From: Bacillota bacterium | GTDB lineage: Bacteria; Bacillota_E; Symbiobacteriia; Symbiobacteriales; Symbiobacteriaceae | Direction of reading: 5' to 3' | Assembly (NCBI GenBank): GCA_003242675.1 | Contig: QGVE01000024.1 | Coordinates: 1 to 24,680 of the forward strand | Length of the DNA stretch: 24,680 nt | Shown: positions 16,912 through 19,490 of the stretch, piece by piece | Position numbering within the stretch: position 1 is the stretch's first letter | How the letters are laid out: every line of letters starts with the position of its first letter | The notes under the pieces: model-generated | What the model saw: only the letters and a program-made list of their open reading frames with translations | Database searches by the model: none | What the model was told of the DNA's origin: nothing | Translations under genes and position numbers: made by a program

Positions 16912-16943
16912 CCGCCGCCTCTGCGGTTTGGGTGGATGGCCGT

Positions 16944-16980
16944 GGCCCCCGTCCTGTTCCAGGCGAACAGGGCGGGGGCC
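16944..16980 (+). terminator. Terminator after the ThDP enzyme gene
   Basis: 16-base stem (16944-16959 with 16965-16980) containing a single G-U pair and a 5-base loop, 32 bases after the stop. Confidence 0.8.
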
Positions 16981-17013
16981 GTCGGCTTCCGGCATACTTC
17001 CGCCAGAGTAATG

Positions 17014-17026
17014 TAGAACTATTCTA
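17014..17026. promoter_or_regulatory. Fur/PerR-family-like operator upstream of the peroxiredoxin
   Basis: TAGAACTATTCTA fits the core pattern TAnAAnnATTnTA of the 7-1-7 boxes bound by PerR and Fur in Firmicutes, with one asymmetry near the centre. It lies just upstream of the -35 of the peroxiredoxin promoter. PerR repression of peroxiredoxins is well known; binding here is inferred. Confidence 0.5.
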
Positions 17027-17048
17027 AAGTACTATTCACGGACTATTC
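17018..17048 (+). repeat. Three direct copies of ACTATTC in the peroxiredoxin promoter
   Basis: Exact ACTATTC at 17018-17024, 17031-17037 and 17042-17048 (spacing 13 and 11 bases). The first copy is half of the PerR-like box and the second overlaps the -35. The surrounding AT-rich block stands out from the GC-rich window. Confidence 0.7.
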
Positions 17049-17063
17049 GTTTGGCTCTAATAT
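17035..17063 (+). promoter_or_regulatory. Putative sigma-A promoter of the peroxiredoxin gene
   Basis: TTCACG (17035-17040) and TAATAT (17058-17063) are separated by 17 bases. AAAGGAGGTGG follows at 17077-17087. Confidence 0.5.
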
Positions 17064-17196
17064 AGGGGTGAGTAGAAAGGAGGTGGCCGCTGTGCCCGAG
17101 TCTGTTGCCTGCGGGAAGCGCACCCCGGGGGCTGGGGTGATCCCCCCTGCGGCGCGCGCCCCGGAGCGGGAGGACCAGTCCGAGAGGAGGAGTGAC

Positions 17197-17817
17197 GTGA
17201 CGATCGCACGCGTGGGTCACGAGGCGCCTGACTTCAAGGCGATGGGTTACTTCAACGGCGAGTTCAAGGAGTACCGGCTGTCCGACTACAGGGGCCAGTG
17301 GGTCGTCCTCTGCTTCTACCCCGGCGACTTCACGTTCGTCTGACCGACGGAGCTGTCGGCAGTTGCCGCGCGGTATGGCGAGCTGAAGGCGCTGGGCGTG
17401 CAGGTCCTGGCGATCTCCACGGACAGCCACTTCGTCCACAAGATCTGGCACGAGGAAGAGCTCTCCCACATGGTGGAGGGCGGCATCCCCTATCCGTTGC
17501 TTTCGGACCCGGGCGGGGTCATCGGCCAGGTCTACGGCGTGTACGACGAGGCGGGCGGAGTGGACATCCGCGGCCGGTTCATCATCGATCCCGACGGCGT
17601 GATCCAGGCCGCGGAGATCCTGACGCCGGCGGTGGGGCGCAACGTGGACGAGCTGATCCGCCAGATCAAGGCCTTCCAGCACGTGCGCGCCTCGGGCGGC
17701 GCCGAGGTCTGCCCGGCCGGCTGGCGGCCCGGCGGCAAGACCCTCCGGCCCGGTCCCGCGCTGGTCGGCAAGGTCTGGAAGGAATGGTCGCCGAGGTCGG
17801 ATCTCGTGCACGCGTGA
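17197..17817 (+). CDS. Selenocysteine-containing 2-Cys-type peroxiredoxin (in-frame TGA at codon 49)
   Basis: AhpC/Prx1-type peroxidase reducing hydrogen peroxide and organic hydroperoxides in the cytosol. The frame is intact for 206 residues apart from TGA at 17341-17343. The context reads [23 protein letters not shown], where the family has YPxDFTFVCPTE, so the TGA stands exactly at the peroxidatic cysteine and is best read as selenocysteine (U49). Other hallmarks are [36 protein letters not shown] (R127) and the C-terminal [10 protein letters not shown] with resolving C172. GTG 17197 is chosen since GAGGAGG is six bases upstream and the protein begins as relatives do; an in-frame GTG at 17092 behind AAAGGAGGTGG would add 35 residues. 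Selenocysteine insertion needs selABCD elsewhere; the alternatives are a nonsense mutation or a sequence error. Confidence 0.88.
17341..17374 (+). promoter_or_regulatory. Candidate bacterial SECIS hairpin after the selenocysteine codon
   Basis: Immediately after TGA a bulged stem can form: CCG/CGG, CGG/CCG and AGCTG/CAGTT around a TCGG apical loop at 17356-17359, 13-16 bases past the TGA. A simpler alternative is CCGAC-ggagct-GTCGG. Distance and size resemble bacterial SECIS elements, though the loop lies slightly close to the codon. Confidence 0.45.
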
Positions 17818-17835
17818 CCGGCTTGGCAAACTTCC

Positions 17836-17868
17836 GGGGAGCGGCTCCACGTGGCCGCTCCCCTTTTT
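17836..17868 (+). terminator. Intrinsic terminator after the peroxiredoxin
   Basis: GGGGAGCGGC / GCCGCTCCCC stem with an 8-base loop followed by TTTTT. Confidence 0.93.
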
Positions 17869-17977
17869 CATTATGAGAGATTAAAATATTCTGTAGATCA
17901 ACCGCAGGTGTACCTGCTCTGTTCCGGCCCGCCATCGCACCCGGTGGCGGGCTCGTGGCTCCGGGGGAGGGAAGGAT

Positions 17978-18298
17978 GTGAACGAGCTCCAGCTGCTCTT
18001 CGAGGCCCTGGCGTCGCTCCTGCCGGAAGCGATTCTGCCCCGGGTGCTGGTGTACGCCGCGATCACGACGGCGTTGGTGGCGCTGCTCCGGCGCATTCCA
18101 TGGTTCGAGGCGCGCCGGCAGGTGGCCGCGCCGGTGGCAGCCCTCGTGATCGGGCAGGGGTTTGGCTGGATGGCGGTGGGGTTCGACCCGGCTCAGTGGC
18201 CGACCGCCACCATGGCGGGTCTGGTCGTCGCCCTGGCGGCCATCGGCGGATACAGCGGCACAAAGAACGTGATGCAGCACGCCAGGAAGGCTTCTTAA
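17978..18298 (+). CDS. Small three-helix membrane protein, function unknown (holin-like size)
   Basis: 106 residues from GTG 17978 with GGGGGAGGGAAGG upstream. Three hydrophobic segments are visible (about 20-38, 50-68, 76-92), the first preceded by an acidic amphipathic stretch, with a short basic tail (KNVMQHARKAS). Size, topology and the YSGTKN-type end resemble some phage holins, but no endolysin or other phage gene is nearby, so I do not assign a function. It stands alone after a 160-base gap that holds the peroxiredoxin terminator and an AT-rich stretch (17876-17900). Confidence 0.7.
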   Translation: MNELQLLFEALASLLPEAILPRVLVYAAITTALVALLRRIPWFEARRQVAAPVAALVIGQGFGWMAVGFDPAQWPTATMAGLVVALAAIGGYSGTKNVMQHARKAS

Positions 18299-19175: not shown

Positions 19176-19490
19176 CTAGAGCCGGCCGCGCCGCCGGGGG
19201 TCGTTGTCCACCAGATTCCGGTCGTAGATCCCGAGCCCCGGCCCGTCCGGCGTCATCACCCAGTCGATGATCATCCCGTCCAGCATCTGCTGGGCGTGCG
19301 CATCCGCCTCCACCGGCACCCCGCCGACCACCGGCGTCGAGGGCCGGCGCGGCACCAGCGTCAGCCGCCACGGGCCGCCGGTCGCATCCGGATCCGCGAC
19401 GATGGAGAGCGCCAGGTTGCCGCCCCGCTCCCGGATGATGTCGTTCAGCTTCTGCGCCGCCTGGGGCGTGAACGTGAACACCGCACTCAC
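19176..19490 (-). CDS. HesB/IscA-like protein without the cluster-binding cysteines
   Basis: 104 residues with the layout of A-type iron-sulfur carriers: FTFTPQAAQKLNDIIRERG (N-terminal strand and helix), then LALSIVADPDATGGPWRLTLVP, VGGVPVEADAHAQQMLDGMIIDWV (the VxVdxxxxxxLxGxxIDyv signature) and LGIYDRNLVDNDP. The three conserved cysteines of IscA/SufA/ErpA are absent (no cysteine at all), so it probably does not carry a cluster through cysteine; this resembles the cysteine-less HesB-like proteins of other Firmicutes. GTG 19490 is taken as start, but its Shine-Dalgarno is poor and a GTG three codons later is possible. Its stop lies just before the tRNA promoter. Confidence 0.75.
   Translation of the reverse strand: MSAVFTFTPQAAQKLNDIIRERGGNLALSIVADPDATGGPWRLTLVPRRPSTPVVGGVPVEADAHAQQMLDGMIIDWVMTPDGPGLGIYDRNLVDNDPRRRGRL

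Follow-up and report, generated by a model that had tools for sequence, protein, structure and literature searches.

A predicted selenocysteine peroxiredoxin gene, prxU, with an in-frame TGA codon in a Symbiobacterium species

The window, that is, the entire stretch of 24,680 nucleotides that was analysed, very probably carries the prxU gene of a Symbiobacterium species, which encodes a peroxiredoxin of the Prx1/AhpC type whose peroxidatic residue is a selenocysteine (Sec) specified by the TGA codon at 17341-17343, read by SelB, and which is probably under control of the PerR type. In the proposed mechanism, SelB and Sec-tRNA(Sec) would read the UGA with the aid of a hairpin at 17357-17368, as suggested by the sequence, by covariation, and by the machinery of congeners. 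The selenolate would attack the peroxide, and the selenenic acid could then be resolved by forming a selenenyl sulfide, either with Cys207 of the partner subunit (in the style of typical 2-Cys enzymes) or with Cys7 of the flexible N-terminal tail. Thioredoxin would recycle the enzyme, and a PerR-like repressor at 17014-17026 would probably hold prxU off until peroxide appears.

The frame at 17197-17817 on the forward strand contains one internal TGA only, at 17341-17343 within FTFV-TGA-PTE, and continues downstream of it through EVCPAGW to a TGA stop at 17815-17817. The read-through protein from 17197 matched AhpC-TSA (1.1e-40), in agreement with the initial annotation, which had noted an otherwise intact AhpC/Prx frame broken by a single TGA at the peroxidatic cysteine. 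Its best match was the NCBIfam model NF040737 for PrxU (366.9 bits, 4.5e-110). Translation from GTG17092 gave 372.7 bits, above the curated cut-off of 270, and the score against the model for typical AhpC (TIGR03137) was 206.4 bits, below the curated cut-off of 272. The window protein contains the PxxxTxxU motif, in which the peroxidatic U corresponds to the Sec codon TGA, and this motif is given for PrxU-type Sec peroxiredoxins in PMC13188914. The C-terminal resolving cysteine by which typical 2-Cys peroxiredoxins are recognized was also present, as Cys207 in EVCPAGW. An AlphaFold2 model of the prxU product had a mean pLDDT of 86.5, with a confident core and an N-terminal tail of low confidence; in Foldseek comparisons, the core resembled AhpC and 2-Cys Prx structures, the best being 5zte and 1n8j, with TM scores (target) mostly of 0.91-0.93. 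Assignment of the gene as an ordinary PrxU selenoprotein gene, a type described in other bacteria since 2001, is thus supported at the level of sequence.

A plain listing of open reading frames (ORFs) presents the gene as two pieces, one reaching to 17343 and the other extending from GTG17398 to 17817 (139 aa). The expectation that gene callers would split it was borne out by a 139-aa database fragment (P0035), 99% identical, whose first residue is that of GTG17398; this fragment differs at one residue and therefore comes from another contig. A further database piece of 144 aa (P0116) is 87% identical to the prxU product. The presence of such fragments in the protein database, and the ORF opened by GTG17398, would suit an explanation in which the TGA acts as a genuine stop, with two separate peptides being made, the second by re-initiation at GTG17398. 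This is extremely unlikely, since that fragment would be without the active-site strand and without the residues that follow the TGA as far as residue 102, whose conservation in the 82 sequences compared below is high.

Comparison of the window with the 87% ortholog of the congener G534 showed purifying selection on the frame both before the TGA (dN/dS of about 0.12) and after it (about 0.21), and an intrinsic terminator, consisting of an 11-pair stem with 9 G-C pairs and a T tail, was located at 17836-17863 on the forward strand. The earlier observation that coding goes on past the TGA to EVCPAGW and a terminator was therefore upheld, and prxU probably forms its own transcription unit. The start at 17197 and the mass of about 23 kDa initially proposed were revised. 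An N-terminal extension of 35 codons from GTG17092 (17092-17196), which lies outside the first-noted frame and includes Cys7 (TGC at 17110-17112), is kept in G534 with a dN/dS of about 0.28, and the PrxU score rises slightly when it is included, with the profile alignment beginning at residue 20. For these reasons GTG17092, which stands behind the ribosome-binding site AAAGGAGGTG (17076-17085, identical in G534), is probably the start rather than 17197. The gene would accordingly span 17092-17817 on the forward strand and its product would probably be of 241 aa, with Sec as residue 84, and of about 26 kDa by length. Because a second good ribosome-binding site, GAGAGGAGGAG at 17182-17192, precedes GTG17197, both starts may be used. 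The ORF at 19179-19490 on the reverse strand was read past its stop in search of a second Sec gene, and nothing was found.

Conservation of the TGA was assessed by using the protein as a query against species genomes; this query had Cys at the Sec site, and the search patterns left that residue out. At least 590 matching stretches were obtained, at least 578 of which encode relatives, and the best 80 of those were kept. TGA was found at the Sec codon in 80 of these best 80 loci. The window, G534, and the best 80 loci make up the set of 82 sequences used throughout, from which weaker second copies and ordinary Cys peroxiredoxins from the same loci were left out. Among 61 genomes searched around G055, which we take to be Symbiobacterium thermophilum, the G534 ortholog has TGA at the Sec codon and G079 has a 70% ortholog holding one TGA. 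No close prxU ortholog was found in G055 or in G533, a genome found among the relatives of G055; both have just homologs of 41-43% without a stop (the best in G055 being 41%), and the absence is less certain for G533, which is in many contigs. A base error, or a pseudogene in which TGC or TGT turned into TGA, would need a single substitution only, and Cys homologs do exist (33 of the 120 protein matches listed). This account, by which the gene is dead or misread, is very unlikely in view of the same TGA, not TGC, in G534 and in the best 80 loci, the selection past the TGA, and the conserved hairpin beside it; in addition, the 99% identical fragment from the other contig begins past the TGA, as it would if made by a gene caller.

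At the Sec position, the 120 listed protein matches had Trp in 70, Cys in 33, and other letters in 3, the searched motif being missing in 14. The Trp evidently results from translation of the TGA with a code in which TGA is Trp, and the active site of PrxU family entries is frequently misrecorded in protein databases. These 70 entries would also be in keeping with a genome-wide reading of TGA as tryptophan or another residue. The probability of such a code is negligible, as the same frame terminates at the TGA at 17815-17817 and the window is syntenic (77-89% DNA identity) with G055, which has the full Sec machinery.

The machinery for selenocysteine was surveyed in relatives, as the initial annotation had proposed for the genome itself. 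The genes selA, selB, and selD and tRNA-Sec were each over cut-off in all five genomes examined (G534, G055, G533, G079, and G016), and in all five selD itself has a TGA; among 14 control genomes, selB was over cut-off in 2, selA in 1, selD in 2, and tRNA-Sec in 5. In a survey of prxU carriers to which 20 of the 80 loci were supplied, selB exceeded the cut-off in 18 of the 20 genomes with TGA-prxU loci, versus 2 of the 14 controls; the two genomes in which it did not exceed the cut-off, G001 and G007, are both metagenome-assembled genomes (MAGs). UGA decoding in the window organism is judged likely from the machinery of its congeners.

A bacterial SECIS-like element was evaluated immediately downstream of the TGA. 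Its predicted core, CGGC-AGTT-GCCG, occupies 17357-17368 on the forward strand, and the bases 19-20 nt past the TGA, which form part of the loop, are GT in 82 of 82 sequences. Across this set, counting in nucleotides after the TGA, pairing was possible for 17-22 in 100%, 16-23 in 95%, 15-24 in 100%, and 14-25 in 91%, and for the outer pairs 13-26 and 12-27 in 67% and 90%, respectively; positions 18 and 21 were A-T, G-C, or G-T in 100%. A null expectation was obtained by resampling synonymous codons from each gene for 500 rounds. The observed value for the five core pairs was 0.973 as against 0.69 in the resampled sets (sd 0.017, highest of 500 being 0.746), and all four stem pairs were formed in 71 of 82 sequences (87%) versus 25% under the null. 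Codons +5 to +9 were restricted, with an identity of 0.53-0.64 compared with an expected 0.28-0.29, and codons +10 to +16 were near expectation. Lesser excesses of codon identity occurred at -11, -3, -1, +1, +4, +17, and +18; the two serines at +25 and +28 showed larger ones, serine having codon sets that are hard to interconvert. In pair counting over the 82 sequences, 92.0% of cells were paired versus 79.7 in shuffled data, and 77 cells were changed on both sides versus 21.9; all six slid registers scored below the hairpin register in both pairing and covariation.

Thermodynamic predictions for the same region were less uniform. Folding 17336-17400 as a single sequence gave no advantage over shuffled versions (z of 0.44), and the window mRNA alone favours other pairings; in the window, pairs 13-26 and 12-27 fail, which leaves a four-pair stem plus an A-U. 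RNAalifold returned no structure for all 82 rows, the expected hairpin for the first 20 rows, three pairs for the first 40, and a longer hairpin for 5 chosen rows. The comparative tests support a predicted SECIS element consisting of a hairpin just past the UGA with a G in the apical loop.

The cysteines of the protein bear on how the Sec might be resolved. Cys74 (17311-17313), ten residues ahead of Sec, is a cysteine in 82 of 82 sequences, and F or V occurs at its place in the five ordinary Cys peroxiredoxin loci compared. At the place of the C-terminal resolving-type Cys207 (17710-17712, EVCPAGW), the 82 sequences, window included, have Cys in 13, Thr in 54, Met in 12, and another residue in 3, and on an 87-row tree this residue switched state no fewer than 7 times. 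The proposal of a Sec/Cys two-residue peroxiredoxin was sustained with reservations: its Sec is supported by the PrxU score, by TGA conservation, and by the hairpin, and resolution through EVCPAGW is plausible in the window protein, yet is not the rule in the family. The N-terminal tail is variable in the 82 sequences apart from its Cys, which lies 72-82 residues ahead of Sec in 74 of 82 (at 74-78 in 70 of those). A looser count, which accepted a Cys at any point within 50 residues upstream of the core, gave 76 of 82 and included loci L005 and L065, whose Cys lie 47 and 52 residues before Sec, beside the core. No Cys at all occurs in this region in a further 6 of 82, 4 of which have open frames of no more than 18 residues there. 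In an alignment of 74 rows picked for having the tail Cys (L005, L065, and these 6 being left out), the tail-Cys column was invariant, and a C-x-x-P-x-x-G-P-like motif was present in the N-terminal tail of many PrxU members.

The window protein has both Cys7 in its tail and Cys207 near its C-terminus. A tentative interpretation, offered as a possibility, is that, among PrxU proteins, the role of resolving Sec has passed from the C-terminal Cys to a Cys in the flexible N-terminal tail, and that the Symbiobacterium protein represents a form with two resolvers. The competing proposal of a 1-Sec enzyme, resolved either by thioredoxin directly or by some external thiol and with Cys7 and Cys207 both irrelevant, draws on the lack of the C-terminal Cys in 69 of 82 sequences and on the position of Cys7 in the low-confidence tail of the model; it is less likely than not, given that the tail Cys is kept in 74 of 82 despite the variability of the tail. 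As that tail is modelled with low confidence, the AlphaFold2 model is silent on whether Cys7 can reach Sec84. Searches of the open-licence PMC literature, at the level of listings and passages, gave no description of an N-terminal Cys with a resolving role in Prx or PrxU. The finding as a whole is of a known kind, and the pattern exposed here, in which the N-terminal Cys is kept and the C-terminal resolving Cys is mostly lost, is testable and is the part worth testing.

Upstream of prxU, a PerR-box-like palindrome, TAGAACTATTCTA, was identified at 17014-17026 on the forward strand as the sole match in the window at no more than 1 mismatch, with 0 matches in 100 shuffles; TTAGAATNATTCTAA-like boxes are presumably PerR sites. 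The same operator precedes prxU in G534, as TAGAACTGTTCTA. A possible, weak sigma-70 promoter, TTCACG-17-TAATAT (17035-17063, forward strand, 8/12 consensus), was recognized by eye and was not reported by a promoter scanner with a threshold of 9 of 12. The operator pattern occurred at 2 sites in G534, at 1 in G055, and at 2, side by side, in G533, and the reversed control pattern gave 1 match in G055. Other than the site at the G534 prxU promoter, each precedes a P-type ATPase-like gene (L126, L125, L124), which in G055 matched TIGR01525 with 443 bits and in G534 and G533 was alike by eye. In G055 and G533 (L125, L126) the ATPase gene is preceded by a gene of the Fur family; no such gene was visible in the short ATPase locus of G534. 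The Fur-family regulators of G055 and G533 best matched PerR models, with 101.3 and 90.4 bits, below the cut-off of 180, and the best PDB match of the G055 regulator was 2fe3, a peroxide operon regulator. Control of prxU by a PerR-type regulator through the predicted operator is likely. A strict PerR-box regular expression had no match upstream of the 82 genes; this pattern misses even the window's own site. Separately, the ATPase loci L125 and L126, with their adjacent PerR-like gene, resemble PerR-controlled metal efflux.

In G055, a single-contig genome, window positions 16918-17923 correspond to 53 bases at an empty site (L123), with the neighbours conserved on both sides. This site is flanked by a TPP enzyme and a 106-aa hydrophobic protein; the latter, which adjoins prxU in the window (17978-18298), has no Pfam match and is conserved in G534 and G055. 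The window and G055 are collinear in long blocks of 82-89% DNA identity, with two shorter blocks of 81% and 77% just downstream of prxU, and the window aligns with G534 over 5.3 kb at 83%. The glucose-6-phosphate isomerase of the window shares 81% identity with the Symbiobacterium terraclitae enzyme and 87% with its G055 counterpart; other database glucose-6-phosphate isomerases reach 88%, and one identical protein is on a short contig. The Symbiobacterium pair was not firmly placed in the tree (10 of 83 inner branches starred), and for this reason gain by transfer and loss in G055 are both possible. Because one congener has prxU, with a PerR-type operator, and another shows a clean empty site in its place, the genus offers a natural comparison for selenium-dependent peroxide defence.

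The name PrxU reportedly derives from the Sec peroxiredoxin of Eubacterium acidaminophilum described by Sohling et al. in 2001. By its description, that family (NF040737) shares with the window protein the peroxidatic Sec and the PxxxTxxU motif, and no essential difference was found; compared with most PrxU relatives examined, the window protein keeps the C-terminal Cys that is missing in 69 of the 82. Typical 2-Cys AhpC (TIGR03137; PDB 1we0, 1n8j) has the fold and the C-terminal EVCPAGW in common with the window protein, which differs in having Sec for Cys, an N-terminal tail with a Cys, and a further Cys ten residues ahead of Sec. That Sec occupies the peroxidatic site of some bacterial peroxiredoxins, as the initial annotation had stated, agrees with two reviews (PMC9312934, PMC13188914), in which Sec peroxiredoxins appear with Sohling et al. 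2001 as the source. A survey of the Sargasso Sea lists 43 Prx and 22 Prx-like sequences (PMC1088965), and a paper on ore-grown Sulfobacillus mentions an upregulated protein named PrxU (PMC7409299). The Sec peroxiredoxin of the sulfate-reducing bacterium Desulfococcus multivorans, likened here by its annotation, is likewise split at the Sec codon, being annotated as two genes, dmul_C20060/70, in PMC5109826. The present analysis lends support to a selenoprotein that gene calling breaks in two, and revises its probable start.

According to Zhang et al. 2006 (PMC1794560), S. thermophilum has 12 selenoproteins, one of which is a peroxiredoxin, so that a Sec-containing peroxiredoxin is recorded in the same genus. 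Locus L122 of G055 (G055:C1:3000300-3003700) holds a frame of the PrxQ/Bcp type (type assigned by eye) with TGA at the active site, DNTPG-TGA-NRQ. The S. thermophilum peroxiredoxin is probably this PrxQ/Bcp-type gene and not prxU, and the gene is apparently a second, different Sec peroxiredoxin in Symbiobacterium. Paired genes were noted elsewhere. In a Calditrichota MAG, two neighbouring prxU-like copies (L044:34-624 and 1027-1611) have TGA at both active sites. In G037, which belongs to the genomes found around G055, two neighbouring AhpC-like frames (46% and 42%) with one internal TGA each, at G037:C12:23157-24317, are possibly further Sec peroxiredoxin genes.
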